40,763 bases of DNA, taken from positions 1-40,763 of the IMG/VR virus record IMGVR_UViG_3300048837_001212. One strand, given 5' to 3'. Below are positions 2,956 through 37,451 of the stretch, piece by piece. Made by a program: the position numbers and the translations under genes. A model generated the notes under the pieces. The model ran no database searches. It was given only the letters and a program-made list of their open reading frames with translations, and was not told the origin of the DNA. This DNA is from a virus. Each line of letters begins with the position of its first letter. Positions within the stretch are counted from its first letter, which is position 1.

Positions 2956-3732
2956 ATGGTCCGATACCTGATTACCTACGTAACCGAGCAACTCGACCAG
3001 CAGCTAAGCCTGCGGGATGCATTCCAAAGCCTGGCCCAGGTGATGGACGGCTTTCACCACTGCGAAGCGTCGCTGGTGGAGGTCGACGATCCGGCCATCG
3101 GCGAAGCGCTGGAGCGCATCTGCCGCGCGGCCGGGGTGCACTACGAGTTCCTAGGCATGCGAGTTCCGGCGAGCGGCCTGATGAAGCCGGAGGAAGTCCG
3201 CGCCGCGTTCCTGGAGACCGAACCGACCGAACTGGACCCCGAGCGCCTGGCGATGGCGCTGGGCGTGCGCGAATCCATGGATTCGCCGGTTCCCGCCGTT
3301 TCTGTAGAAACGGGCGTTTCTGTAGAAACGGTCGAGGCGGAAGATCTGCCGGTCTGCCCGTACTGCCGGGAGTCGTTCACGCCAAAAAATTCCAGGCAGA
3401 CCAACTGCAAGAAGCCGGAATGCCAGCGGGCTTACAACCGCGAATACATGGCGAATTACGCCAGGCGAAAGAAGGCGGATGCGGCGGAAACCCTGCCGGC
3501 GGGCGATGGATCGCCGGAGGAGCAGCCTGACGCCGAGTTCGACATGCCGGAATTCATCCGCCAGCCGGACGGCGGCGATCCGCCGATCGCTGGCGACCAG
3601 GCGGGCATAACAACGCCTGAGGAGCAGCCGCAGACAGACCCTTTCGAAGGGATCGACAAGGGGCGGGTGCGGGCCGCTCAGATAGAGCGGGGCGGCCAGG
3701 GCGAATCGTTGCCGGCAGTCCCTGGCGACTGA
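2956..3732 (+). CDS. Zinc-finger protein of the maintenance block
   Basis: A 258-residue protein of unknown function. Start 2956 (MVRYLITY) follows AAAGG at 2943-2947. Residues about 1-110 form a globular N-terminal domain. About residue 132 onward lies a Cys-x2-Cys ... Cys-x4-Cys zinc finger (CPYC ... CKKPEC) followed by a basic helix, then an acidic, proline-rich disordered tail. Two copies of the 14-bp palindrome (3298 and 3316) lie just before the zinc finger and are translated as VSVETGVSVET, apparently as linker. Its place next to ParB suggests a role in the cassette, where family members often have a protein E; this match is not proven. Confidence 0.65.
   Translation: MVRYLITYVTEQLDQQLSLRDAFQSLAQVMDGFHHCEASLVEVDDPAIGEALERICRAAGVHYEFLGMRVPASGLMKPEEVRAAFLETEPTELDPERLAMALGVRESMDSPVPAVSVETGVSVETVEAEDLPVCPYCRESFTPKNSRQTNCKKPECQRAYNREYMANYARRKKADAAETLPAGDGSPEEQPDAEFDMPEFIRQPDGGDPPIAGDQAGITTPEEQPQTDPFEGIDKGRVRAAQIERGGQGESLPAVPGD
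3298..3329 (+). repeat. Two tandem GTTTCT-GT-AGAAAC palindromes
   Basis: Copies at 3298-3311 and 3316-3329, 18 bp apart. Each has 6-bp inverted arms around a GT centre and is flanked by C and G, extending the arms to 7 bp. Both are inside the zinc-finger protein gene, in the frame that reads VSVET. They belong to a set of ten copies in the genome. Confidence 0.9.
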
Positions 3733-3882: not shown

Positions 3883-5370
3883 ATGCAATCAGCCACAGAA
3901 ATTAAACTCGAATATTTCAACACCAGCCGCTACCAGCCGCGCGACGGCGAAGACCGGGAGCACATCGAGGGCCTGGCGCTGTCGATCGCGTGCAACGGCC
4001 TGATGCAGGCGCCGGTCGGGCGGCTGATCGGCGCGGACGGCCAGGCGCTGGTCCGCCACGAGGTCGAGCGCGAGTTCGGCCTGGAGCGCGCCTTCCGCGA
4101 AGGCGCGCGGGTGGAGCTTGCTTTCGGCAACTCGCGGTTAGCCGCCTTCCGGCTGCTCTACGACATCCAGACCAAGCTCAAACACAAGATCTTCATCGAC
4201 GCCCCGACCGAGATGGTGGAGGCAGCACGCGGCTACGACTTCGAACGCATGCCGGTGGTGATCCGCGATATGGATGACCTGGCGCTGTTCGAGGCGGGCA
4301 TCCGCGAGAACAACGACCGCAAAGACCTGGACCCCATCGAGCGAGCTCAGGCGATGGAGACCTATCGCGAGAAATTCGGCAAGACCTCGGTCGAAATCGG
4401 GCAATTGTGGCACATGAGCGACGGCGCGGTGCGCAACACGATCCGGCTGCTGCGGCTGCCGCCTTCTGCGCGGGCCTGGCTGCGGACGGGGCAGATCAGC
4501 CAGGGGACGGCGCGGGCGCTGGTGGCGCTCTATGATCTGACGGAAATCGAGCGCGCCGCGGCGGAAGATCAAGACGATTGGGCCAAGCCGAATGAGATCG
4601 TGGAACTGGCCCTCTCCGGCGCAAAGCCGGAGCAGCTTACGGCGATGATCGGCGAGCTGCACCGCTGGCTGCGCCCGGAGATGCAGCAGGGGTCGTTCGA
4701 CGCGGCTCCCCCGGTGGAGGAACCGGCGGCAGACGATCAACCGGGCGTTGAGACTTTCGAGACGGCGTCGGGCGAGTTCCAGCCGCTGCCGGCGGTGGAT
4801 GGACACTCGGTGCGGGTGTCGGAGCCGGTGATACCGGATCTACCTTCGCCCGAAGAAGAGAAAGCGATGGGGTACGATCCAGATTATGATCCCGCCGCGC
4901 CGGAAGATGCCGGCATTCCCGCAGGAATGAGCGTTTCTGTAGAAACGGTTACCGAAACGATCAACGAAGCGGCGGTGATGGAACCGGCGGCGACTGCACC
5001 GGTCCCCGCGCCTGCTCCCATCCCTACCCCACCCCAACCGGAGCAGGCAGCGACGGAGGTAAGCGTCACGCCGCCCGCGCAGACTCCAACGCCTGCGCCC
5101 CAGCCAAAGCCCGAGCCCGCTCCGCAGCCGAAACCCGAACCGGTCCCGGCAAAGAAACTCACGTGGGACCAGTCGACCATCGTTATCACCATCACGCTCT
5201 GGGCAGATGACGGCAACGAGAAAGGACGCCCGGTGGTGCTGGGCGTGCGAGCGAACCAGGACGCGCCCAAGATGCAGATGCTGCGCGCGCACGACCTCTT
5301 GGGTCACCTGCCGCCGCAGGCCGGTAATTTGATGAACCAGATCCGCGAAGAGATGGAAAAGGAGAGCTGA
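3883..5370 (+). CDS. parB: ParB-family protein of PRTRC-like cassette
   Basis: A 495-residue protein. The N-terminal ParB/Spo0J nuclease-fold domain starts with a YFNTSRYQPR segment; the box II equivalent GNSRLAAF is near residue 85 after an insertion of about 40 residues. A helix-turn-helix follows at about 155-205 (SVEIGQLWHMSDGAVRNTIRLL). Residues about 270-420 are acidic and then proline-rich with PQPKPEP repeats. The last 75 residues form a separate beta-rich domain (ITITLWADDG ... VVLGVRANQDAPKM). Family members bind DNA sites and partition or regulate plasmids. No ParA partner is present. The gene starts the cassette whose following genes are a ubiquitin-like protein, E2, JAB and E1 proteins. 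A palindrome copy lies at 4933. Confidence 0.85.
   Translation: MQSATEIKLEYFNTSRYQPRDGEDREHIEGLALSIACNGLMQAPVGRLIGADGQALVRHEVEREFGLERAFREGARVELAFGNSRLAAFRLLYDIQTKLKHKIFIDAPTEMVEAARGYDFERMPVVIRDMDDLALFEAGIRENNDRKDLDPIERAQAMETYREKFGKTSVEIGQLWHMSDGAVRNTIRLLRLPPSARAWLRTGQISQGTARALVALYDLTEIERAAAEDQDDWAKPNEIVELALSGAKPEQLTAMIGELHRWLRPEMQQGSFDAAPPVEEPAADDQPGVETFETASGEFQPLPAVDGHSVRVSEPVIPDLPSPEEEKAMGYDPDYDPAAPEDAGIPAGMSVSVETVTETINEAAVMEPAATAPVPAPAPIPTPPQPEQAATEVSVTPPAQTPTPAPQPKPEPAPQPKPEPVPAKKLTWDQSTIVITITLWADDGNEKGRPVVLGVRANQDAPKMQMLRAHDLLGHLPPQAGNLMNQIREEMEKES
4933..4946 (+). repeat. GTTTCT-GT-AGAAAC palindrome inside parB
   Basis: One copy of the 14-bp dispersed palindrome, GT centre, read in frame as VSVET in the linker between the ParB DNA-binding part and the proline-rich region. 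Confidence 0.9.
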
Positions 5371-5371
5371 C

Positions 5372-5803
5372 ATGGCAACCTACCAGGTGCTGGTCGAGGG
5401 GCAGATCATCCCCGTACCCGAAGAAATCGGGTCGAACGACGATGCTGTGAAGCAGGCGCTGAGCCCGTTTTACCCAGAGGTGGCAAACGCCGGGATCACG
5501 CGCAGTGAGAAGGACGGGGTGATCACCGTGACGGTGATCAAGAAGGCTGGGTCGAAGGGGCTGGACCCGCTGGATCATCTGATAGCTTGCGAAGGCGGTA
5601 AGAACCCGGCGGTGGCGCTGTTCGAGGAGATCCAGGAGCAGCAGGGCCGAACGGTCGGGCCGTTCGAGCTGCTGGCGATGGACGCGAAGATCGAAGCGGC
5701 CATCGCGGAAGGAGAAAGCCAGGCGGAAGCGGTGGCCTACGCCGGCAAGCGCCTGGCCCAGGCGCTGCCGCAGCCCAGCCGGTTCCACCTGGCAGGGTTC
5801 TAA
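5372..5803 (+). CDS. Ubiquitin-like protein (PRTRC protein C-like) with C-terminal extension
   Basis: A 143-residue protein. Residues 1-63 resemble the small ubiquitin-like PRTRC protein C family: a beta-hairpin start, a helix that ends in SPFYPEVANAGI, and a strand ending in IKKAGSKG. Family members usually stop near this point and are about 70 residues long. Here a helical 80-residue extension follows residue Gly63. A ubiquitin-like domain with extra residues behind a terminal glycine is what a JAB peptidase would need to trim, and one is encoded three genes downstream. Alternatively the extension is a stable fused domain. GGAGA lies before the ATG; it follows parB by one base. Confidence 0.75.
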   Translation: MATYQVLVEGQIIPVPEEIGSNDDAVKQALSPFYPEVANAGITRSEKDGVITVTVIKKAGSKGLDPLDHLIACEGGKNPAVALFEEIQEQQGRTVGPFELLAMDAKIEAAIAEGESQAEAVAYAGKRLAQALPQPSRFHLAGF

Positions 5804-6699
5804 TGGCTGCGACGGGGTTCGGGGAGTCGGCGCGCGGGCTGAAGCGCCTGCGCCTGCCAACCGTGTTTTCTGCGCTTGCTGCGCTGCGCCAGGCCCGGGC
5901 GACCACGTCCGCCGCGCGCATCCTGGAGGAACTGGACCCGGTCGCGCTGCGCGTGGCGTGCGCCGACGGCGTGGACCTGTTCGACCCGGACGACACGGCG
6001 CTGGTCGGCGTGGCCCTCTCAGCGATCGACTACGTCGCGCCGCTGGACCTGAACACGATCGAGCAGGAATTCTCGGAGGGCGACGGCGCGCCCTGGCTGC
6101 TGCCCCGGCCGGAAGGCTTTGCGTGCGGCTGGGATGAATGGTCCGATTACAGCAGCAGTCCTGCCGAATACGCGTGGGCAAAAATGTACATCTTCTGGAC
6201 GGCCGTCCGCTTGCAGGAAGGCGACACGCTGGAGCGGGCCGGGGTTGAATTCGGTTGGCTCGACTGGGGCCTGGAAATTCCGGGCGAATGGCCGGACGAG
6301 ATCGACTGGGAGGCGTTCGAGGGCGCTCTGCGGAAGCGCGGACTGGGGTGTCACCTCGCGGCGCGCGCGATCTGCTGGTACGACACCGGTTTGGATTATT
6401 TCGATTGGAACCCTAACGACGAAGGCCAATTCGGCGATTACCCGTACCGGGATTTCAGCATAGAAGGGGTGCGCGAACTGCAAGCCGAGTGGGAAAAAGC
6501 CCGGCCCATGAACGTAGATTACCAACTGGCGCGCGATGCGTTCGACATCGATCCCAGCCTGGCGGGCAAGCTGCTGGCGCTGTACTGCGCAAGCCGGAAG
6601 AAGAGGCGGCGGCGCGCCAGGGCGCGCACGCTAGCGGAGGTGTTCCAGGAAGAGCAGGCCCGGGGTTACGTGCCCGAACGGGTGAGAGTTCGGGGATGA
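5803..6699 (+). CDS. PRTRC protein F-position protein, unknown function
   Basis: A 298-residue protein that I do not recognise by motif. It is rich in Trp, Asp, Glu and Tyr with many short aromatic-acidic segments (WDEWSDY, FGWLDWGLEIPGEWPDEIDWEAF), and ends in a basic stretch (RKKRRRRARAR) that could bind nucleic acid. It starts at the A of the previous TAA and its own TGA overlaps the downstream ATG. In PRTRC cassettes the fast-evolving protein F lies between the ubiquitin-like protein C and the E2-like protein B, the place this gene occupies. The assignment rests on gene order only. Confidence 0.55.
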   Translation: MAATGFGESARGLKRLRLPTVFSALAALRQARATTSAARILEELDPVALRVACADGVDLFDPDDTALVGVALSAIDYVAPLDLNTIEQEFSEGDGAPWLLPRPEGFACGWDEWSDYSSSPAEYAWAKMYIFWTAVRLQEGDTLERAGVEFGWLDWGLEIPGEWPDEIDWEAFEGALRKRGLGCHLAARAICWYDTGLDYFDWNPNDEGQFGDYPYRDFSIEGVRELQAEWEKARPMNVDYQLARDAFDIDPSLAGKLLALYCASRKKRRRRARARTLAEVFQEEQARGYVPERVRVRG

Positions 6700-6710
6700 T
6701 GAGGTGGACG

Positions 6711-7409
6711 ATGGAACAGACGACGACGAAGAACAATGCCCTGACCATTTTGGGCGCGCCTCCGGCAGCGCCGCCGTTCCCGACCCAGGGGGTTTTGTAT
6801 TTCCTGGACGGCCAGTACCTGTTCTGCTACCCAACGCAGGCCGGCGGGCACGCGTCGAAGTTCGTCACGGCGAAGGACGTGGCGGCGGCATTCGCGCGGG
6901 TGGAAGAAGATTCGGGCTGGCTGCCGGCAGGCGTGGTGCGCTGCGGAAACAGCGCGCGGGGGCGGTGGTTCGCCTACACCGCGCCGGCGCAGAAGGTGGA
7001 GATCGCGCTGGGCGACGAGCACCTCACCGTCCCGATCCCGCGCACGGTGCTGCTGGTGATGGGTGACCAGCATTATCTGTGGGCGCTGTGGGAGAAATAT
7101 TTCTTTCCCGAGGCAGCCGCCTACCACGCGCCGTTTCCCAACGTCTACCCGGGCGGCAAGATTTGCTGGGGGCAGAACACACCGCCGGCGTTCGAGGTGA
7201 GCGAAGCGCGCCAGACCTGGGAGAAATTCTTCGCCACGCCGTTCAACCAGGACCTGGCCGAAGGCAAGAGCCGCGAGCACGGCAGCGCAATCGAGATGCT
7301 GCGCAGGCTGGCGGACGGGAAGCGGCGTACCTATCCGGGCGACGACCTGGTCGAGGCAGGCGGTTCAATCGGCAGCAAAATCAAATACGTGCTCGAAGGA
7401 GGTGGGTGA
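6711..7409 (+). CDS. E2-like ubiquitin-conjugating-fold protein (PRTRC protein B)
   Basis: A 232-residue protein. FPNVYPGGKICWG near residues 143-154 matches the heart of E2 enzymes, where His-Pro-Asn is followed by the active-site Cys in a GxIC segment; Cys152 is the candidate nucleophile. In ubiquitin-type systems the E2 receives the activated modifier from E1 and passes it to a target. GAGGT at 6701-6705 supports ATG 6711; in-frame ATGs at 6696 and 6699 overlap the previous stop and are alternatives. Its TGA overlaps the start of the JAB gene. The functional reading is from the family and the motif, not from a measured activity. Confidence 0.75.
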   Translation: MEQTTTKNNALTILGAPPAAPPFPTQGVLYFLDGQYLFCYPTQAGGHASKFVTAKDVAAAFARVEEDSGWLPAGVVRCGNSARGRWFAYTAPAQKVEIALGDEHLTVPIPRTVLLVMGDQHYLWALWEKYFFPEAAAYHAPFPNVYPGGKICWGQNTPPAFEVSEARQTWEKFFATPFNQDLAEGKSREHGSAIEMLRRLADGKRRTYPGDDLVEAGGSIGSKIKYVLEGGG

Positions 7410-8053
7410 TGGATGGCTCCGCTTTCGTCAATTACCGCTTTGCCCGGTCTCCTCAACTGCCGCCGGTGAGCGGCGGGCTGTACGAATACGTGGTCGCCGC
7501 GAACGGCATCTTCGTGCGCGCAAAGCGGCCCGAACTGGAGGCGATGATCTGGATCGCCGCGACGCGCGCGCCTCTGCGCGGGTTGAGCATCTTGCAGCCT
7601 TACCTGCACCCGGCGGCGCGCGTGCAGGCGCGAATGACGGCGCAGATGTTTGAGATGGCTTACCGGGCAGGAGGTAATGAGATCCTGTTCTATCTTGGCA
7701 TGCAGGGGGACGCCTGGCGGCTGGGGCTGCCAGAGCAGGCGCAGGGGGTGGTAAGCGTTCACCCGCTCAACCCGTTTGCCGGGGGCGCGGGCACAGCGCT
7801 GGAGGTGCACTCGCACCACGGGATGAATGCGTTCTTCAGCAAGACCGACGACAAAGAGGAATCGGCCGGGTTCCGGGTGTACGCGGTGATCGGCGACCTG
7901 GAGCGCGCGCCGGCGATCTTGACTCGGGTAGGAATTTACGGGCACTTCCAGGAAGTGCCCTCGACGTGGATCTTCGACCTGCCGCGCGGGGTGCGCGACG
8001 GGCTGTATCCGGCGGATGATAAGGAACTGCAATATGTCGACGTCGAAGATTGA
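7409..8053 (+). CDS. JAB/JAMM metalloprotease (PRTRC protein A)
   Basis: A 214-residue protein. His134-Ser-His136 followed by seven residues, Ser144, two residues and Asp147 is a perfect JAMM zinc motif (H-x-H-x7-S-x2-D), the active site of isopeptidases that remove ubiquitin from targets or trim its C-terminus. The start at ATG 7409 overlaps the TGA of the E2 gene, and AAGGAGG lies upstream. The 3' end overlaps the E1 gene by 20 bases. The likely substrate is the ubiquitin-like protein encoded at 5372. Similar JAB proteins work with E1 and E2 in bacterial antiviral CBASS and Bil systems. Confidence 0.88.
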   Translation: MDGSAFVNYRFARSPQLPPVSGGLYEYVVAANGIFVRAKRPELEAMIWIAATRAPLRGLSILQPYLHPAARVQARMTAQMFEMAYRAGGNEILFYLGMQGDAWRLGLPEQAQGVVSVHPLNPFAGGAGTALEVHSHHGMNAFFSKTDDKEESAGFRVYAVIGDLERAPAILTRVGIYGHFQEVPSTWIFDLPRGVRDGLYPADDKELQYVDVED

Positions 8054-8879
8054 TCCGAATTATCTTGACCTGGATTACTTGAATTCCTGCAAGCTGCTGC
8101 TGCCGGTGACCGATATGGTCTCACTCGTGTTGGTGGGCTGCGGGGGAACGGGCTCGTGGCTGGCGCCGCACGTGGCGCGGGTGGCGCGCCTGCTGGTGGA
8201 GAAGTTCCACAAAGAGACGCAGGTGTTTTTCTACGACCCGGACCAGGTTGAGGAGAAGAACATCTACCGCCAGAGCTTCAGCTATGCCGAGATCGGCCAG
8301 AACAAGGCGCAGGCGCTGGCCTGGCGCTATGGGCTGGCGTGGGGGCTGGAGATCGTGGCGGTTCCCAAGGCGTACGAGGCCGGCAAGCTCAGCTACCGGG
8401 GCTCCCTGGCGGTGGTGATCGGCTGCGTGGACAACGCCGCCGGTCGGACGGCGATCCGCGACGACGTGCAGCACTCGGCGCGCACCTGGTGGCTGGACTG
8501 CGGCAACACGCGGAGCGCCGGTCAGGTGCTCGTGGGCAGCGGGTACACGCGGCCCGAAGACCCGTACCAGCTGCCCGGGTTCTGCACGTGGCTGCCCTTG
8601 CCATCCGCGCGCCACCCGGAGCTGCTGGAGGCGCTGCCGGGAGAGGGCGTTTCTATAGAAACGGGCGTTTCTGTAGAAACGGTCGCACCGCAAAATATGA
8701 GCTGCGCGGAGATGGCGCTGGCAGACAGTCAGGGACTGGCGATCAACGCGCGCATGGCGGCCGAGGCGGCGGATTACCTGGTGCGGATGCTGGTGACGAA
8801 AGACCTGCGGAAATGGGGCACGTACATCGACCTGGCGAGCGGGAGCGCGCGGTCGAAATACATCACGAAGGATCATTAA
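8034..8879 (+). CDS. ThiF/E1-like adenylating enzyme (PRTRC ThiF protein)
   Basis: A 281-residue protein with the nucleotide-binding GCGGTGS at residues 35-41, followed by an Asp-rich strand end and a Gln-Asn-Lys region typical of the ThiF/MoeB/E1 fold. Such enzymes adenylate the C-terminal glycine of a ubiquitin-like protein and pass it on as a thioester. AAGGA at 8021-8025 favours ATG 8034 over the ORF start at 8016. The gene overlaps the JAB gene and its stop overlaps the next ATG. Two palindrome copies (8649, 8667) insert the linker VSIETGVSVET at about residues 206-216, close to where E1-type proteins have a flexible crossover loop. Confidence 0.85.
   Translation: MSTSKIDPNYLDLDYLNSCKLLLPVTDMVSLVLVGCGGTGSWLAPHVARVARLLVEKFHKETQVFFYDPDQVEEKNIYRQSFSYAEIGQNKAQALAWRYGLAWGLEIVAVPKAYEAGKLSYRGSLAVVIGCVDNAAGRTAIRDDVQHSARTWWLDCGNTRSAGQVLVGSGYTRPEDPYQLPGFCTWLPLPSARHPELLEALPGEGVSIETGVSVETVAPQNMSCAEMALADSQGLAINARMAAEAADYLVRMLVTKDLRKWGTYIDLASGSARSKYITKDH
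8649..8680 (+). repeat. Two tandem GTTTCT-NN-AGAAAC palindromes in the ThiF gene
   Basis: Copies at 8649-8662 (centre AT, fully symmetric) and 8667-8680 (centre GT), 18 bp apart, the same spacing as the pair at 3298. Both are in the VSxET frame. Confidence 0.9.
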
Positions 8880-9691
8880 TGTTCCCATGCCTTTCTGCTT
8901 TACAGGTTCGGGCGCTGTCTGGCGTGCCGGCGACGATCTACCTGCTGTTAATGAGCGAGCCGGCGGGCGGCAACCAGGAGTGGATCGAGCGCTATTCCGG
9001 GTTCTCTGACAAGCCCGTCAAGCAGGCCCTGGCGCTGCTGGTCGAACTGGGCATGGTATCGCGCTGCGGGGTTCGTGGGTCGTATACCTACCACCTGGTG
9101 CGGCCTGACCAGGAGCGGCAACTGCCGCTGCCGGTGGAGCGGATCGAAGCGGGGCCGGAGATTGTCGATGCTGTGGCAGCGGACGCTCAAGCGCCGAACG
9201 CACCCGGTCCGGAGTTTCCAGCGCAGGAAACAGCCGATGAAGATCAACCGGCGGGAAGGTTAGGGAAAATCGAGTCGGAGAAACTCCGACTCGCGCCTCT
9301 AGCTAGTAGTAGTAGTAGATCTTTAAATCTAGATTCTAGAGAGAATCTACTACCACCAGATTCTAGAAGAGCGGTCGAGTCGGAGAATTTCCGACTCGCG
9401 GCGCTGCTGGACCGGGCGGAGGTGCGCGACCCGGCGAAATCGCGTTTGCTGCGGGGTGGTTTTGACCCGGAGGTGATCGAGGCACACCTGCGGTTGAGCG
9501 ATTCGACCGGCCAGGCGATCTACCGCATCGAGCACAACTGGCCAGTGGCGTGGGATAAGTGGCGCGACTGGCAGCAGTTTCACTGCCGGGAATGCGGCGG
9601 AACGATCTATCCCGGGGAGCAGTGTTATCGCTGCGCGCCGAACGAGGAAGGCGAGGAGGATGACGATGACGGTTCGGGAGAAGTTGAGTAA
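8879..9691 (+). CDS. Winged-helix replication-initiator-like protein with zinc ribbon
   Basis: A 270-residue protein. Residues about 10-75 form a winged helix of the type seen at the N-terminus of phage and plasmid replication organisers (TIYLLLMSEP ... WIERYSGFSDKPVKQALALLVELGMVSR ... YTYHLV). A low-complexity linker follows, then a helical part and a Cys-x2-Cys ... Cys-x2-Cys zinc ribbon (CREC ... CYRC) and an acidic tail. The linker DNA (9270-9400) carries an origin-like repeat cluster, the same design as the lambda O gene, which contains its own origin. The function is inferred from the domain and this repeat cluster. It overlaps the ThiF stop by one base. Confidence 0.65.
   Translation: MFPCLSALQVRALSGVPATIYLLLMSEPAGGNQEWIERYSGFSDKPVKQALALLVELGMVSRCGVRGSYTYHLVRPDQERQLPLPVERIEAGPEIVDAVAADAQAPNAPGPEFPAQETADEDQPAGRLGKIESEKLRLAPLASSSSRSLNLDSRENLLPPDSRRAVESENFRLAALLDRAEVRDPAKSRLLRGGFDPEVIEAHLRLSDSTGQAIYRIEHNWPVAWDKWRDWQQFHCRECGGTIYPGEQCYRCAPNEEGEEDDDDGSGEVE
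9270..9400. other. Putative replication origin (repeat cluster in initiator gene)
   Basis: Two 26-bp direct repeats begin at 9270 and 9375, exactly 105 bases apart, and differ at only two bases. Each is itself palindromic: CGAGTCGGAG (9271) pairs with CTCCGACTCG, and CGAGTCGGA (9376) with TCCGACTCG. Between them the DNA is AT-rich for this genome: five TAG repeats (9304-9318), AGATTCTAGA at 9331 and again at 9358, and TAGATTCT/AGAATCTA (9330-9349). Paired protein sites around an AT-rich unwinding element are typical of origins. The protein here is only serine- and leucine-rich linker. Confidence 0.6.
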
Positions 9692-12076: not shown

Positions 12077-13242
12077 ACAAGATCAGCGAGATGGACAAAC
12101 TGAATGCCGAAATGGCCTTGTGGGAGCAAAACCCCCGCGAGGTCCGCGCGTTTAATGCGCAGTACGAGCAGGATATTCCGATAGTGCTGGCGATGGCTAC
12201 CGCGACCGGGAGCGTCTCGGGGCTCAACCCGATGAGCTGCGCGCACTGGTGTGATATCAGTCACTGGACGGACGGCCTGGACCTGTACGACCTGCTCACC
12301 AATCATCGCTTCGACGGATCCATGCCAAAGGCCGCCGACGGCGCGCAGATGTACCCGGGCGACGCTTACGACCTGGGGAACTACGTCGATCATACCTTCC
12401 CCGGCTTTGTCGACCAGACCTACCACGCTCGCAAGGGCTGCATCCCGTACTTCTTCTTCCAGCCGAAATACTTCCAGGCTTCAACCCCTGAAAGCGACTG
12501 GCAGTACAAGCGCCTCAAATACGCCTTCAACAACAAGATCCCTGGTAAATCGTTTCATGCCCTGGCGATCGATCTGGAAGTGGGCGGCGACTCGGACGTC
12601 AACACGGTCAATAAGCTCAAGCGCTTTTTTGGCTGGCTGCTGTCGGATCCGCAGTTCAACACGGTGCCGATCATCTGGTACACCAGCATGGGCTATCTCG
12701 GGCAGCACCCGGCGATCGCCAACTGGTTCGGCGCCAAGGAAAGCCCGGTCGAGTTGTGGATGGCGCAGTGGTCCCACTCGCATGTCGCGCATGGGCCGAT
12801 CCCGATCGACCAGATGGACGCGCACATGGCCGCGGTCAACATGCGCGTGATGCTGCCCGGAAATAATAGCAAGCGGCGCTTTGTCCAGTGGACCGACGCG
12901 ATCGAAGTGGGTAAGCAGGGCGTCGACGGTAACTTCTATTTTGGCACGGTCGAGGAGTGTTACACCTGGTTAGGTGTAGATACCGCACCGCTGCCGCCAC
13001 CCCCGCCACCTCCCGCACCTGAACCGGTGACGATGACGATCGATAACCCGTGGTCTGACCGGATCAATCTGCGCTCAGCGCCGATCGTTTCTACAGAAAC
13101 GCTGAAGGGCCAGTTGCACGACGGCACGCAGGTCGAGGTGCTGGAAGAGAAGGTGGTCGGGGGTGATGTGTTTATCCGGGTGCGCGCTGAGGGCTGGATT
13201 GCCAAGCGCTACCAAGGTCGCAACTATATCGGAGGCAAGTAG
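12073..13242 (+). CDS. Endolysin: GH25-like lysozyme with SH3-type domain
   Basis: A 389-residue protein starting with GTG. The glycoside hydrolase 25 fold shows as CDISHW (Asp61), AIDLEV (Asp167, Glu169), a WYTS strand and LWMAQW/QWTD segments. These enzymes cut the N-acetylmuramyl bond of peptidoglycan. A proline-rich linker (about 310-325) leads to a C-terminal SH3-type wall-binding domain (INLRSAP ... GTQVEVLE ... GWIAKRY). No signal peptide is visible, so it would depend on the holin. A 50-residue N-terminal extension precedes the catalytic domain. A palindrome copy at 13087 lies in the SH3 domain. Confidence 0.85.
   Translation: MNKISEMDKLNAEMALWEQNPREVRAFNAQYEQDIPIVLAMATATGSVSGLNPMSCAHWCDISHWTDGLDLYDLLTNHRFDGSMPKAADGAQMYPGDAYDLGNYVDHTFPGFVDQTYHARKGCIPYFFFQPKYFQASTPESDWQYKRLKYAFNNKIPGKSFHALAIDLEVGGDSDVNTVNKLKRFFGWLLSDPQFNTVPIIWYTSMGYLGQHPAIANWFGAKESPVELWMAQWSHSHVAHGPIPIDQMDAHMAAVNMRVMLPGNNSKRRFVQWTDAIEVGKQGVDGNFYFGTVEECYTWLGVDTAPLPPPPPPPAPEPVTMTIDNPWSDRINLRSAPIVSTETLKGQLHDGTQVEVLEEKVVGGDVFIRVRAEGWIAKRYQGRNYIGGK
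13087..13100 (+). repeat. GTTTCT-AC-AGAAAC palindrome in the endolysin gene
   Basis: One copy of the dispersed palindrome, with AC centre (opposite polarity to those at 3-9 kb), read as VSTET within the SH3-type domain. Confidence 0.9.
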
Positions 13243-13714: not shown

Positions 13715-14401
13715 ATGCCAGCCAAAAAGCCGCAAGGATTGAACCGCCGCCACAACACCAAGGCCGAAAACGCCGACAGAGTCGCGCGCGAAGATTCGGT
13801 GACGCCCGAGGTTGGCCTGCCGATGAGCGCACCGGCACGGTTAAAGGAGCATGCTGTTGCGGCTGGAGTCTGGCGGCGGTTGATGCGGTTGTACAGCAGC
13901 CTTGAGGCGGTTGTGGTGACCGCGCTGGACCAGGACCAACTGATCGACTACTGCCTGTTGATGGAGACGGCGGTCGAGGTGCTCCTGATGCGCAAAACCA
14001 CCTATCGCATGTGGTTGGAACTGGGCGTGGCACATGATCGAGCGATTGACAAGGCCAAAGAGGCAGCCGAAGCCGCTAAAAAAGCGGTAGCGGCGGCCAA
14101 TGAGAGCGGCGCTGAGATGCCTGAAAAAGGTATTGGCAGCCTGACAGAGGTCGAAAAATGGGAAGACCGCGCGGTGATGCTGGCCTGCAAGAGCCTGGAC
14201 GCCTGTAAGGCGGTGGAAAGGTTGGACGTCCGGTTTGACCAGAAGTGCAAGACCCTGTCGGGATTCCGGCAGACGCTGTATCTCACGTCGCGGTCCAGAG
14301 CAGGGGCGAGCCCGGCCAAGAAAGAGGAGCCGGAACCGAAGGGTGAACTTGAGTCGATCCTGGATGATGTGGATTCGTTTTTGAACGGCGATGGAAAATG
14401 A
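13715..14401 (+). CDS. terS: Terminase small subunit-like protein
   Basis: A 228-residue, largely alpha-helical protein with a basic N-terminus, a central helical region rich in Ala and Lys (about 110-130), and an acidic C-terminus that ends in ESILDDVDSFL. This layout and its place directly before the large subunit, with an ATGA overlap, identify the DNA-recognition subunit of the packaging motor, although the family is divergent. GGGGAG at 13704-13709 supports ATG 13715; GTG 13682 is an alternative. Confidence 0.75.
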   Translation: MPAKKPQGLNRRHNTKAENADRVAREDSVTPEVGLPMSAPARLKEHAVAAGVWRRLMRLYSSLEAVVVTALDQDQLIDYCLLMETAVEVLLMRKTTYRMWLELGVAHDRAIDKAKEAAEAAKKAVAAANESGAEMPEKGIGSLTEVEKWEDRAVMLACKSLDACKAVERLDVRFDQKCKTLSGFRQTLYLTSRSRAGASPAKKEEPEPKGELESILDDVDSFLNGDGK

Positions 14402-16143
14402 GACGATTTTTCGCAGTGCTTCTCTTGCTGGTGATGCTGATCGCGGAGGCTCCCGTGTTCAGTGAAAAGCACGCTGCCTGGGCCGTGAAATTCTTTGAGA
14501 GCCTGGTGCACACGGACGGCGAATTCTACAACCAGCCGTTCGTCCTGCTGCCCTGGCAGAAGCAGATCATCCGCGACGTTTACGGCACCTTGAAGCCGGA
14601 CGGAACGCGGCAGTACCAGTACGTCTACCTGGAGATCCCGAAGAAAAACGGGAAAAGCGAGCTGGCCGCCGGCGCGGCTTTGTATCACACCTTCGCCGAT
14701 CGCGAAATGAAGGGCGAGATCTACGGCTGCGCAGTCGACCGCGGGCAAGCCGATATCGTCTACCAGGTCGCCCGGGATATGGTCGAGCTGCACCCGGTGC
14801 TGTCGAAGCGAGCCAAGATCACGGATTCGGGCAAACAGATCTACGACCCGAAAACGAAATCGCTGTACAAGGTGCTGAGCGCTGACGCCTTCCGGAAGCA
14901 CGGCTTCAAGGTATCGGCGTGCATCTTCGATGAGCTGCACGCCCAGCCTAACCGCAAGCTGTGGGACGTGATGACCTTCGAGGCGGGTGCCAGCCGCAAG
15001 CAGCCGATCTGGTGGATCATCACCACCGCCGGAGAAGATCCTGATCGAGTCTCGATCTGCTGGGAGCAGCACGAGTACGCGCTCCAAGTGCTGGCGGCGC
15101 GCAACGGCACGGGCGATCCGGCCGCTGACGACCCGATCTGGTACCCGGTGATCTTTGGCTACGACGGCGAGGATATCTACAACGAGGCGAACTGGTTCAA
15201 AGCCAACCCTTCCCTGGGCACGGCGAAGAGCCTGGAGTCAATGCGCGACGCGGCGCGCACGGCGAAAAAGAAACCGGAAAATGAGCGGCTCTTCCGCTGG
15301 CTGGACCTGAACCAGTGGATCACCACGAAATTAACCACCTGGCTGCCGCTTGAATTGTTTGATAAGACCATCGGCAGTTGGAATCGCGCCGATCTCCTGG
15401 GAAAGGATTGCTTTCTAGGGATGGACCTCTCGTCGACCACCGACCTGACGGCAATCTGCGCGCTCTTCCCGCCGCAGGGCACGCAGTACGACTGGCGCGC
15501 ATTCTGGCACTGCTGGATCCCGGGCGATGCGCTTCAGGAGCGGGTGGAAAAGGATCACGTGCCCTATGACAAGTGGGCCGAGGCCGGGCACGTGACGGTG
15601 ACCGAGGGCGACGTGGTGGATTACACCAAAGTCGAAGCGACGATCCTGGAGATCAAGAAGTTCTACAACGTAATCGAGCTGCCCGCGGACCGCGCGTTCG
15701 CCGCTATGCTCTTGCAGCGCCTCGAGCAGCAGCAGATGCTGTGCGTCGATGTGCCGCAGACCTTCAAAGTGTTGACCTCACCGATGAACCTGATCCAGGT
15801 CCTGCTGAAGATCGCCGCCAAGCAGCAGGACGACGACCTGGAGCAGTTGAAGGCCGATCTCGCCCAGGCTCTGGGCATGCCTGCGCTCAACGCCGTTCTG
15901 CTGCGCGGCGGGTTGACGCATGAAAACAGCCAGGTCGCGCGCTGGTGCTTCGGCAATGCATCCAAGGCCACGAACGGTAATGCGGAGATCAAGCTGGTCA
16001 AAGAGCACAAGGGCCGGTCGGTGGACCGTACCAAGCGGATCGACCTGATGACGGCGCTGGTCAACGCGATGGCCCGGGCGCAGTTCTACCAGCCGAAGGT
16101 GGATCTCACCGCGGCGATCATGTCGGACGATTTTGGGTTTTAG
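14398..16143 (+). CDS. terL: Terminase large subunit
   Basis: A 581-residue packaging motor protein. The ATPase domain has the Walker A-like PKKNGKS at 81-87 and Walker B IFDE with Asp178-Glu179. The nuclease domain begins at MDLSSTTDLTA (about 342) and has a second acidic strand near ELPADRAF; RIDLMTALVNAM is the typical C-terminal segment of HK97-type enzymes. It cuts and pumps DNA into the prohead through the portal. The first 20 residues are unusually hydrophobic for this family, so a start at ATG 14434 is possible. Confidence 0.93.
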   Translation: MRRFFAVLLLLVMLIAEAPVFSEKHAAWAVKFFESLVHTDGEFYNQPFVLLPWQKQIIRDVYGTLKPDGTRQYQYVYLEIPKKNGKSELAAGAALYHTFADREMKGEIYGCAVDRGQADIVYQVARDMVELHPVLSKRAKITDSGKQIYDPKTKSLYKVLSADAFRKHGFKVSACIFDELHAQPNRKLWDVMTFEAGASRKQPIWWIITTAGEDPDRVSICWEQHEYALQVLAARNGTGDPAADDPIWYPVIFGYDGEDIYNEANWFKANPSLGTAKSLESMRDAARTAKKKPENERLFRWLDLNQWITTKLTTWLPLELFDKTIGSWNRADLLGKDCFLGMDLSSTTDLTAICALFPPQGTQYDWRAFWHCWIPGDALQERVEKDHVPYDKWAEAGHVTVTEGDVVDYTKVEATILEIKKFYNVIELPADRAFAAMLLQRLEQQQMLCVDVPQTFKVLTSPMNLIQVLLKIAAKQQDDDLEQLKADLAQALGMPALNAVLLRGGLTHENSQVARWCFGNASKATNGNAEIKLVKEHKGRSVDRTKRIDLMTALVNAMARAQFYQPKVDLTAAIMSDDFGF

Positions 16144-16145
16144 CG

Positions 16146-16310
16146 ATGAAAACGTTTCTACAGAAACACCTCGACGATCTCCTGATCCTGGCCGGCTGCG
16201 GCCTGATCGTGTACACCACGGCGCTTTTGAGCGTGATCGCAGCGATGTATACGGCCGGTGGGATGCTGATCGCCCTCGGGGTGCTGATCGGGCTGGGAGG
16301 TAAAAGATGA
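16146..16310 (+). CDS. Small membrane protein between terminase and portal
   Basis: A 54-residue protein with two hydrophobic segments (about residues 12-33 and 38-50). Its TGA overlaps the portal ATG. The codon run ACG TTT CTA CAG AAA at its start contains a palindrome copy (16154), here in another frame (FLQK). Tiny membrane proteins at this place are common in HK97-type phages, with unknown function. Confidence 0.6.
   Translation: MKTFLQKHLDDLLILAGCGLIVYTTALLSVIAAMYTAGGMLIALGVLIGLGGKR
16154..16167 (+). repeat. GTTTCT-AC-AGAAAC palindrome
   Basis: Dispersed palindrome copy with AC centre, at the 5' end of the small membrane protein gene. It is the only intragenic copy not in the VSxET frame; a GT centre in this frame would create a TAG stop. 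Confidence 0.9.
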
Positions 16311-20677: not shown

Positions 20678-21274
20678 ATGGCGAATATCCTGACGGCGGC
20701 AGAGGCCGCGAATGTTTTGAGATGCGATGTGGCAGACGCGAACATGCTGGCGCTGCTGCCGTCGGTTGACGCCTATATCCAGAACGCCACCGGGCGGGAT
20801 TGGACGGCGGATAACCCGGTACGCCCGGAAGCAAAAGCCGCCGCCAGGATGCTGATGGTGCGCTGGCATGAAGACCCGGGCGGGATGGCGGCCGGCAGCG
20901 CGCTCTCGTTCGGCCTGGCGGCCTGCCTGGTGCAGCTCGAGGCGCTGGCGCTCGCGCTGGAGTCTGCTGGCGTTCCGGATGAGGAGCTGGCGCTCGAGCG
21001 GACGAATATCGCCGGCGATATGGCGATCGACGCGAATCTGGTACTGATCTTCAATCACCAGATGGATGCCGGCGCGATCGCGGCGGTGAGCCTCTCTACA
21101 GGCGCTGGCGTGCCGGTCGTCACCGTTAATTCGCTCGACGCGACCGTAAAGATCCTCACAATCGATCCTACCGGCAACCTGACCGCCGGAACTGCCTATC
21201 TGCTCACCATCACGGCCGCGGCCGATATCTACGGCCAGACGCTGACGACTGACGTGAGGTTTGCAACCGCATGA
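20678..21274 (+). CDS. Head-tail connector with C-terminal Ig-like domain
   Basis: A 198-residue protein. Residues 1-100 are helical (LTAAEAANVLRCD ... LPSVDAYIQNATGRDW) and resemble gp6-type head-tail connectors that dock on the portal. Residues about 105-198 are a bacterial Ig-like (Big_5-type) domain ending in LTIDPTGNLTAGTAYLLTITAAADIYGQ. A closely related domain ends the tail tube protein at 22600. Its ATGA overlap couples it to the next gene. Confidence 0.75.
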   Translation: MANILTAAEAANVLRCDVADANMLALLPSVDAYIQNATGRDWTADNPVRPEAKAAARMLMVRWHEDPGGMAAGSALSFGLAACLVQLEALALALESAGVPDEELALERTNIAGDMAIDANLVLIFNHQMDAGAIAAVSLSTGAGVPVVTVNSLDATVKILTIDPTGNLTAGTAYLLTITAAADIYGQTLTTDVRFATA

Positions 21275-21627
21275 ACCTGAACGGGAAGACCTTCAACCCT
21301 GGCGAACTACGCACGGCCGTCCTTCTTGCGCCGCGCACCGTTTCTACAGAAACGGGCGGCTTCCAGAAGCCCGCGCCGGACGTCTCACACGCTGTGAGCG
21401 CCTGGGCGAAGTGGGTCAACGCGCACGGGGCCGAGGTATGGACGGCCGACACGGCCGGGGCGGTGGAGCCGGCGACGGTGACCATCCGCTTCCTGGCTGC
21501 GCTCGACGCGACCTGGTACGTGAGCAAGGATGCAGGCGCGAGCTGGTTCGAGGTTGTGTCGCTGGATAACGTCCAGGAACGCGGCGAATACCTGGAACTA
21601 AAGGTCACCAGGACGAGGAGCGGGTAG
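21271..21627 (+). CDS. Head closure/head-tail joining protein
   Basis: A 118-residue protein. NPGELRTAVLL at the start and a W-containing beta-barrel (AWAKWVNAHG ... ATVTIRFLAALDATWYV) match the phage head-tail joining family that closes the portal after packaging. A palindrome copy (21340) lies in the first loop and reads VSTET. Confidence 0.75.
   Translation: MNLNGKTFNPGELRTAVLLAPRTVSTETGGFQKPAPDVSHAVSAWAKWVNAHGAEVWTADTAGAVEPATVTIRFLAALDATWYVSKDAGASWFEVVSLDNVQERGEYLELKVTRTRSG
21340..21353 (+). repeat. GTTTCT-AC-AGAAAC palindrome in head closure gene
   Basis: Dispersed palindrome copy with AC centre, in the VSTET frame, in the first loop of the head closure protein. It is the last copy before a 14-kb stretch of tail genes with none. 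Confidence 0.9.
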
Positions 21628-23521: not shown

Positions 23522-23884
23522 ATGAGCGGTGCTCCGATCAAACTGACGATCTACGACCAGGAAGACGAATCGGTAGTCAAGGAATTCTCTGCCCATATCG
23601 TGCCCTGGGGCATTATGAAACGGGCCATCCGGCTCGGCAAGAGCATGAAAGGACTGGCGGGGAACGACGACGCCGCGATCCTGGAGCAGATGTCTGAAGA
23701 TGACATCGATAACCTGACCGGTCTGGTCGCCGACGTATTCGGCGGGCGGGTGACGGTCGAGGAACTCGAGCGGGGCGCAACCATCCCAGAGATGCTGGCC
23801 ATCCTTCAGGCGGTGATCGGGAAAGCGTTCGGAGCATCGCAAAACCCTACGGTTCCGGGAAACAAGACCCGGAGCCGGAAGTAG
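23522..23884 (+). CDS. Tail assembly chaperone, zero-frame product (gpG-like)
   Basis: A 120-residue protein between tube and tape-measure genes, the place of tail assembly chaperones. It has a beta-rich start and acidic helices (EQMSEDDIDNLTGLVADVF). AGGAG at 23511-23515 favours ATG 23522 over 23519. The zero frame stops at TAG 23882-23884. Confidence 0.8.
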   Translation: MSGAPIKLTIYDQEDESVVKEFSAHIVPWGIMKRAIRLGKSMKGLAGNDDAAILEQMSEDDIDNLTGLVADVFGGRVTVEELERGATIPEMLAILQAVIGKAFGASQNPTVPGNKTRSRK

Positions 23885-24078
23885 AGGACGTCACCGGCAT
23901 CGACTGGATGCTGGACCTGGAGATCTCGCTGGTGAAGGCCTTCCAATGGTCGGTCCACGAGATGGATAGAACCGACACCGAGAGCCTGATGCTGTTCGTC
24001 CACCGGCTGACGGCGACGAAGGGCGCGGGCTCTCGCAAAAAAAAGCAGTACATCGACCAGGCTAAGGGCTGGTTGTGA
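23522..24078 (+). CDS. Tail assembly chaperone, -1 frameshift product (gpGT-like)
   Basis: A slippery heptamer G-GGA-AAC lies at 23857-23863 in the correct phase of the zero frame. A -1 slip leads into an open frame that starts at base 23863 and runs to TGA 24076-24078, giving a 185-residue protein. The added part (DWMLDLEISLVKAFQWSVHEMD ...) is helical and has no start of its own. This is the conserved lambda G/GT arrangement, which sets the ratio of two chaperones that bind the tape measure. Confidence 0.85.
23857..23863 (+). promoter_or_regulatory. Programmed -1 ribosomal frameshift site
   Basis: GGGAAAC fits X-XXY-YYZ in the zero frame (codons GGA and AAC). The zero-frame stop is seven codons later and the -1 frame is open for 71 codons. 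A 4-bp CCGG stem downstream is weak, so the stimulator is not clear. Confidence 0.85.
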
Positions 24079-24088
24079 GGAGCGAACA

Positions 24089-24451
24089 ATGACCAAACGC
24101 GGAAACGTGTCACTTGGACATGTGAAGGTTGCGGGGGCCGGGACCGAGGCCGATCCGTATGTCGATAAAGTCGCGCTGACCGAGCATTACGCGCCGGTAG
24201 GGGCCCACGTCTCGGGGGCGAATATCGCCGCGGCGACGGCCCTGGTAAAACCAGCCGGTGCAAGCCAGATCCTGATCCAGGCGCTGACCCAAAACGTGCG
24301 CTTTACGCTGGACGGCAGCGACCCGACCGCGGCGGTCGGGTTCCAACTGCTGGCGGGCAGCGCGCCGGTGATCATCTCGGTGCCGGGCGTTTCGATCAAG
24401 GTGATCCAGGAAGCCGCGGCTGCCAGCCTGCAATACCAGTGGCTGGCGTGA
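24089..24451 (+). CDS. Small tail-region structural protein
   Basis: A 120-residue beta-rich protein (VALTEHYAPVGAHVSGANIAAAT ... VRFTLDGSDPTAAVGFQLLAG) of unknown family. The FTLDGSDPTA pattern is seen in small phage structural proteins. It lies between the chaperones and the tape measure and probably belongs to the virion. Confidence 0.6.
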   Translation: MTKRGNVSLGHVKVAGAGTEADPYVDKVALTEHYAPVGAHVSGANIAAATALVKPAGASQILIQALTQNVRFTLDGSDPTAAVGFQLLAGSAPVIISVPGVSIKVIQEAAAASLQYQWLA

Positions 24452-24477
24452 TTTGATCCTTCTGGGAAGGAGTCCCT

Positions 24478-35631: not shown

Positions 35632-35645
35632 GTTTCTGTAGAAAC
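35632..35645 (+). repeat. GTTTCT-GT-AGAAAC palindrome, intergenic
   Basis: Dispersed palindrome copy with GT centre in the gene-free stretch between the integrase and the bidirectional terminator. It is one of two copies not inside a gene. Confidence 0.9.
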
Positions 35646-35771: not shown

Positions 35772-35801
35772 TCGGGGCGGGCGGATTTGAACCGCCGACC
35801 T
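35772..35801 (-). other. Putative attP core: 3' end of a tRNA gene
   Basis: On the minus strand AGGTC (variable loop), GGCGG-TTCAAAT-CCGCC (T-arm, 35796 to 35780), CGCCCCG (acceptor) and discriminator A form the 3' part of a class I tRNA. The matching 5' acceptor strand CGGGGCG does not occur on this strand nearby, so it is not a full tRNA. Integrases commonly use such 3' ends so that the host tRNA is restored after insertion. It lies between the two tyrosine recombinase genes. Confidence 0.7.
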
Positions 35802-35897
35802 CACGGAAGTCCGTCTAAATCCCGTATACCGGCGGTTTGTGAATCTCGCGCGTTCAACCGTGAGCCCAAATCCGCGCTTGCATTTCGTTTTTTGATG

Positions 35898-37437: not shown

Positions 37438-37451
37438 GTTTCTACAGAAAC
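37438..37451 (+). repeat. GTTTCT-AC-AGAAAC palindrome, intergenic
   Basis: Dispersed palindrome copy with AC centre, 4 bases after the stop of the second recombinase. It is the only copy that breaks the polarity rule relative to the proposed origin. Confidence 0.9.

Follow-up and report, generated by a model that had tools for sequence, protein, structure and literature searches.

The stretch of DNA analysed here, from now on the window (40,763 nucleotides; IMG/VR record IMGVR_UViG_3300048837_001212), hosts an operon in which ubiquitin-like conjugation genes follow a gene encoding a ParB-like DNA clamp. ParB, a ubiquitin-like protein (Ubl), an all-helical protein, an E2-like enzyme, a JAB peptidase and an E1 enzyme are encoded in one operon. 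Judged from the sequences, the conjugation set is complete and constrained, and ParB is predicted to have cognate parS-like sites specific to the phage. There is about an even chance that conjugation is coupled to this ParA-less ParB, being brought to phage DNA and tagging the proteins found there.

The six frames had been listed in this order in an earlier note, made from the letters of the window, and were all recovered where it had placed them, the ends of neighbours touching or overlapping; the end of ParB and the start of Ubl are 2 bp apart. The note was also right in setting the cassette inside a temperate phage. The record is a temperate tailed phage of 40.6 kb, encoding terminase, portal, protease, capsid, tail and tape measure proteins and two tyrosine integrases, and an exact repeat of 127 bp at both ends marks it as complete and circular. 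The dispersed ParB sites, the rule linking JAB to Ubl extensions and the fusion of a cassette domain to ParB go beyond that note.

Conjugation enzymes

The E2, JAB and E1 products match PRTRC profiles (Table 1). Catalytic residues were compared in alignments of 19-20 sequences from phages and plasmids. E2 Cys152 and Asn144 are both conserved in 20/20, and the JAB residues E91, H134, H136, S144 and D147 in 19/19. In E1, the GCGGTGS motif, D74, R85, K97, D139 and C230 are invariant or near-invariant; Cys230, a candidate thioester cysteine on grounds of conservation, is fully invariant. The ATP site and cysteine of E1, the E2 cysteine, the JAMM residues and the Ubl glycine are intact together. 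The E2, JAMM and E1 patterns signalled by the earlier note are hence present in the window and invariant in its relatives. The note had left room for a lack of similarity to Ubl, E2 and JAB families, or for catalytic residues lost in related phages; the profiles do match, and the residues are kept in all relatives. An absolutely conserved histidine C-terminal to the E2 cysteine was reported by Iyer et al. for class 6d (PMC1779556); no invariant histidine follows Cys152 among 15 aligned E2s.

The E1 is of the ThiF/MoeB type and mature Ubl would end in glycine, as expected if Ubl were a sulfur carrier similar to ThiS or MoaD and no protein modifier. However, simple sulfur transfer would have no use for JAB or for a dedicated E2 in which Cys and Asn are invariant, and no sulfur-metabolism gene was detected in the operon by profile scans. 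A sulfur carrier is very improbable.

The Ubl precursor and its JAB peptidase

The Ubl of the window is a beta-grasp-like domain ending in AGSKG (residues 59-63; codons 5546-5560), followed by a helical extension of 80 amino acids. Similarity to PRTRC_C is weak in single-sequence searches (E 0.005) and clear in profile-profile comparisons (E 2.8e-10; Table 1). The AlphaFold2 (AF2) model features a strand-strand-helix-strand-strand core plus a three-helix extension; its matches in Foldseek searches (protein L/G, PB1) were weak and beta-grasp-like, all with E above 0.001. The beta-grasp fold is supported by topology of the model and by profile. Gly60, Lys62 and Gly63 are invariant in 18 sequences. 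Ubl, including part of the extension, also matches the PADLOC family C3a152, specific for type III-C CRISPR (E 1.6e-17), which suggests that cassettes are found beside CRISPR loci elsewhere.

Across cassettes, Ubls either stop precisely at the GxKG motif or run on past it. All the operons encoding an extended Ubl encode JAB (105/105), and in the JAB-less operons with a scorable motif Ubl invariably stops at GxKG (16/16); in a seventeenth JAB-less operon Ubl ends in GTKA. Naked GxKG ends were found also in 6 operons featuring JAB, and extended Ubls in 0 operons lacking it (Fisher p 9e-16, ancestry ignored). A check of the JAB-less operons revealed no JAB at E < 10, and in most of them E2 borders directly on E1. 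Five changes of JAB state were counted on the E1 tree, and the 4 usable supported independent pairs are concordant in most pairings. Because extended Ubls all have a JAB, and JAB-less Ubls end at GxKG, JAB probably matures Ubl, cutting after Gly63. There is an analogy in BilA, the Ubl whose C-terminal glycine is exposed by a JAB enzyme (PMC11354881); JAB-type cleavage is known also for archaeal ubiquitin (PMC6043591). With this rule, the maturation of Ubl precursors, described in Bil and in archaeal Rpn11, would include the present family.

A Bacillus jumbo phage features tandem Ubl repeats ending in KAGVKG. Polyubiquitin-like tandem Ubl repeats, with E2, JAB and E1 downstream, were noticed in Bacillus phage KLEB27-3 (L045:664-1413) and Vibrio phage D69 (L041:2385-3176). 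Cassette genes of both are annotated as hypothetical, save KLEB27-3 E1 (ThiF) and one PRTRC_A note.

ParB and its parS-like sites

The ParB of the window keeps the nucleotide-binding motifs GNSRLAA and ENNDR, which are retained in nearly all of 25 ParBs. Ten GTTTCTRTAGAAAC sites (20 strand-wise matches) were found in the window, where 0 are expected. Seven (3298, 3316, 4933, 8649, 8667, 13087 and 21340) are intragenic, which makes a role as operators only unlikely. Twelve relatives were scanned for RTTTSNNNNSAAAY near-palindromes, along with shuffled controls; 2-5 per record were found in 11 of these and 0 in one fragment. Altogether, 2-10 sites are present in 12/13 phage records, the shuffle means being 0.02-0.36. 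Two or more sites occur at 19/31 loci in which ParB is next to Ubl, and at 0/101 ParB-less loci (p 3e-15, uncorrected for ancestry). A chance origin of the palindromes is ruled out by the shuffles, by ParB-less cassettes, and by TerL relatives lacking the cassette, most of which are without sites. In the complete genome of Leptolinea sp. HRD-7 (3.57-Mb chromosome), 7/7 GTTTGCGCGCAAAC sites fall inside an integrated prophage. The five sites of a second host are similarly confined to the prophage, all within 33 kb.

Sites vary with ParB residues 173, 201 and 204 (Caulobacter numbering). Q173/R201/R204 ParBs are associated with ATTTCC, the Noc site, R173/R201/non-Arg204 ParBs with GTTTGC, and D173/G201/R204 ParBs with GTTTC[CT]. 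All loci with matching sites obeyed the rule, 6, 10 and 7 in the respective classes (both rounds, about 23 loci). Specification of G1 by R173, of A1 by Q173 and of C6 by R201 has been established experimentally (PMC7383237); the link between residue 204 and site position 5 was observed in this analysis.

ParB is made of ParB_N and ParB helix-turn-helix domains and, after a Pro-rich linker, a cassette domain at the C-terminus, some 65 residues long (approximately residues 425-490). In cyanobacterial and other cassettes, free-standing homologues of the latter are encoded immediately upstream of Ubl (hmmsearch down to 1e-8; HHalign prob 96.9). It is mainly because of this shared domain that ParB is proposed to address the conjugation machinery to phage DNA. 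Homology of the domain to PRTRC E was not detected, the available profiles being thin.

ParB and its specific, centromere-like sites would also suit a plasmid-type partition or maintenance system, in which they serve as the centromere of an extrachromosomal prophage and Ubl regulates ParB; that PRTRC often resides on plasmids might point this way, and related E1 genes are found in 407 plasmid records of PLSDB. Yet ParA (PF13614) was found in 1/13 phage records by a search that was positive in 14/14 control genomes, and its absence from the other 12 argues against partition. In addition, the ParA-docking motif is missing in 25/25 ParBs, the sites are scattered and unclustered, and the Leptolinea prophage is integrated at tRNA-Val. 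A partition role is unlikely.

One site is found 222-262 bp upstream of terS in four phages, and farther upstream in the window (Table 1), which hints at the late region. ParB might accordingly be a sliding-clamp regulator, or a packaging or condensation factor, and the Ubl cassette a separate, neighbouring module. KorB, a clamp of the ParB family, silences RK2 genes at a distance (PMC11790492). The largely intragenic location of the window sites and the cassette domain borne by ParB speak against a KorB-like role, which is improbable.

Other features of ParB genes and sites were noted. The seven intragenic sites of the window share one reading frame (GTT TCT ...), and the tandem pair in E1 is an insert missing from other aligned E1 proteins. 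In several relatives, a parS-like site is located within the 3' part of the gene corresponding to window 8879-9691. The TerL relative L246 has three perfect GTTTCTATAGAAAC sites (271, 9895, 13151), on a fragment without the cassette. In G003 and G004, the cassette ParB is directly preceded by another, divergent ParB-like gene (23595-24473 in G003, 14097-14972 in G004).

The helical protein and the gene downstream of E1

The product of ORF 5803-6699, present also in relatives, had been placed at the position of PRTRC F by the earlier note. Homology to F was not confirmed: no F match was obtained by hmmscan, and profile comparison gave a prob of 0.1. No family was assigned by profile scans, and the all-helical AF2 model matched nothing in PDB or BFVD by Foldseek. 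The protein is an obvious candidate for an adaptor or an E3, though this is a guess. ORF 8879-9691, conserved beside or near the cassette in relatives, encodes a protein with a winged-helix-like start and a Cys-rich end. It had been regarded as a replication gene; no family match was found in profile scans.

Distribution of the cassettes

Twelve close relatives found in IMG/VR share the cassette genes and their order with the window, as far as contigs reach; their structural genes vary. Wider E1 searches identified 93 IMG/VR contigs (80 kept) and gave 191 matches in bacterial genomes (80 kept), and the order Ubl-helical protein-E2-JAB-E1 recurs in more than 100 further loci. Anaerolineae and further Chloroflexota are closest among the bacteria, along with one Desulforudis metagenome-assembled contig, and cyanobacteria come next. 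The hosts are Anaerolineae. Some relatives are prophages; in Leptolinea sp. HRD-7, 50-bp att repeats in tRNA-Val flank the element at 2,696,541 and 2,732,679. E1 matches were found in 10/50,697 annotated phages. The cassette is no one-off, as it is found also in the cultured Burkholderia phage BgVeeders33 (OK665841; L040:16216-20702), in which PRTRC C, F, B, A and ThiF, and PRTRC_E as well, exceed their cut-offs. The cluster is annotated there as hypothetical, except E1/ThiF, called dinucleotide-utilizing enzyme. TerL relatives devoid of the cassette exist, and the cassette is therefore accessory. ParB showed no association with viral as against non-viral cassettes.

E1, E2 and JAB are deployed against phages by Bil and CBASS (PMC10097602; PMC11354881), which had led the earlier note to an antiphage reading. 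A similar system, directed at competitors or host defences, would transfer Ubl onto virion or host proteins, and ParB would be either unrelated or a self-marker. The accessory nature of the cassette fits this, and so do the many cassettes without ParB. Direct support for the antiphage reading did not emerge. No CD-NTase (the CBASS cyclase) or effector of type II CBASS was found among operon genes by profile and PADLOC scans, and PADLOC gave weak generic E1 similarity and the CRISPR-tied family mentioned above. No Bil-named match was obtained in NCBIfam or PADLOC (2023) scans, where the presence of Bil models is not established. The domain fused to ParB and the tight abutment of ParB and Ubl rather favour a link between the two, and an anti-competitor or counter-defence system is somewhat unlikely.

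Proposed mechanism

In the preferred reading, conjugation guided to phage DNA by ParB, JAB would cut the Ubl precursor after GxKG. E1 would adenylate the freed glycine and hand Ubl to E2 Cys152, probably via Cys230, and JAB could also reverse the conjugates. ParB would load as a nucleotide-dependent clamp on the cognate palindromes scattered through the phage genome. The conjugation enzymes would be drawn to phage DNA by the C-terminal domain of ParB, which the helical protein may assist. We infer that Ubl is conjugated to proteins there, ParB itself or others bound to phage DNA, marking or remodelling the phage nucleoprotein. The benefit would most likely lie in protecting or processing incoming or prophage DNA; protection from host systems, silencing of the prophage and packaging are all candidates. 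Modification of ParB by Ubl, one of the options of the earlier note, is possible, and better motivated now. The location of ParB sites over the genome of the virus, and not over that of the host, suggests that tagging is directed at viral DNA. A stricter version, in which ParB loads on the phage genome only, recruits E1, E2 and JAB, and makes modification dependent on viral DNA, is put forward tentatively.

Several points weigh against ParB-guided conjugation. ParB is missing from many cassettes (most cyanobacterial loci, Mu-like phages), and is therefore not obligatory. Asp173 of the window ParB lies outside the published specificity code, and the code-type ParBs of G003/L004 and L077 have no matching site on the available fragment. 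The tree test of the JAB/extension rule gave p = 0.125, pairs being too few and loci sharing ancestry.

PRTRC-type operons were described in 2006 (PMC1779556). Titles and abstracts of the open literature on PRTRC appear to give no function, and no description of phage ParB-Ubl operons was found in the open literature, subscription journals being outside the search. DNA-addressed ubiquitin-like conjugation in a virus of bacteria is not described in the literature searched. The phages make the PRTRC question testable, because both a cultured phage, BgVeeders33, and a lysogen with a complete genome, Leptolinea sp. HRD-7, carry the genes, and the position at which Ubl is cut, the sites of ParB and the putative catalytic residues have become specific predictions. 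If ParB truly directs conjugation, the ubiquitin-like mark would be addressed by DNA sequence.

Features of the window

Operon genes and parS-like sites are listed in Table 1. A resolvase is also encoded by the phage, beside the two integrases. A tRNA-like 3' end sequence, possibly attP, lies at about 35780-35890, 3' of the first integrase and of a parS-like site.

Table 1. Operon genes and predicted parS-like sites of the window (pLDDT, predicted local distance difference test; pTM, predicted template modelling score)
Feature	Position	Strand	Evidence
ParB-like CTPase/DNA clamp	3883..5370	+	PF17762 5.4e-16; TIGR00180 5.4e-18
Ubl precursor	5372..5803	+	PRTRC_C profile-profile prob 96.8; AF2 pLDDT 88; conserved GxKG
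All-helical protein, F position, orphan fold	5803..6699	+	AF2 pLDDT 91, pTM 0.81; occurs in relatives
E2-like conjugating enzyme, catalytic Cys152 in FPNVYPGGKICWG	6711..7409	+	Prok-E2_D (PF14460) 3.6e-23; PRTRC_B (TIGR03737) 1e-16
JAB/JAMM peptidase, putative Ubl maturation and deconjugation	7409..8053	+	PRTRC_A (TIGR03735) 2.4e-12; JAB presence tracks Ubl extension
E1/ThiF activating enzyme, start possibly 8034	8016..8879	+	PRTRC_ThiF (TIGR03736) 1.6e-39
parS-like site GTTTCTGTAGAAAC	3298..3311	+	Window site scan
parS-like site, tandem with 3298 site (18 bp)	3316..3329	+	Window site scan
parS-like site, within parB	4933..4946	+	Window site scan
parS-like site, within E1, in loop missing from other aligned E1s	8649..8662	+	Window site scan, E1 alignment
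parS-like site, within E1, tandem with 8649 site (18 bp)	8667..8680	+	Window site scan, E1 alignment
parS-like site, 595 bp upstream of terS	13087..13100	-	Window site scan
parS-like site, between terL and portal	16154..16167	-	Window site scan
parS-like site, within open frame 21271-21627	21340..21353	-	Window site scan
parS-like site, downstream of first integrase	35632..35645	+	Window site scan
parS-like site, immediately downstream of second integrase	37438..37451	-	Window site scan

Comparison with known systems

KorB of plasmid RK2 is likewise a clamp of the ParB family that acts over a distance on a mobile element, but it has no Ubl cassette, and is a transcriptional repressor working with KorA. 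The ParB fold, the dispersed sites and the lack of a ParA partner are shared with Noc and its NBS sites, as well as, for the fold, with ParB/parS systems at large, and several relatives have Q173/R201 ParBs and ATTTCC sites resembling those of Noc. In contrast to Noc, sites are found only in the phage and none over the host chromosome, and ParB has a fused cassette domain and a Ubl operon. BilABCD has Ubl, E2, JAB and E1 in common with the window, and its JAB exposes the Ubl glycine as reported above. It differs in the tandem-Ubl BilA, in the E1 with inactive and active adenylation domains, in the CEHH-type E2 and in the lack of ParB. BgVeeders33 similarly features a phage-borne Ubl-F-E2-JAB-E1 cluster and an extended Ubl, but its E, C, F, B, A and ThiF are canonical PRTRC proteins, the tail is Mu-like, and no ParB was found beside the cluster.

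The closest counterpart is the PRTRC system of plasmids (TIGR03734-03738, TIGR03742, PF19556; class 6d of Iyer 2006, PMC1779556). The gene order ParB-C-F-B-A-ThiF of the window matches that of plasmids, ParB-(E)-C-F-B-A-ThiF, and C, B, A and ThiF are homologous; a function is known for neither system. The window proteins score below the curated PRTRC cut-offs (bits/cut-off: ThiF 135.7/144.75, A 46.8/101.8, B 61.1/131.45, C 17/45.95), as does ParB with the PRTRC ParB model, whereas E2 largely exceeds the PF14460 cut-off (82.6 versus 25). F and E are not detectably homologous. No separate E gene is present between ParB and C, its position being filled by the domain fused to ParB. The window Ubl has moreover its 80-residue extension, and the cassette is carried by a phage, to which the ParB sites are restricted. 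Of the complete PRTRC-like cassette announced by the earlier note, the PRTRC-like conjugation set stands, though divergent and below cut-offs, and the separate E is missing. Because the four shared conjugation proteins fall below cut-offs, and E and F fail, this is strictly not a PRTRC system, and is best called a divergent PRTRC-like (Prok-E2_D) variant of phages, alike in order and chemistry.

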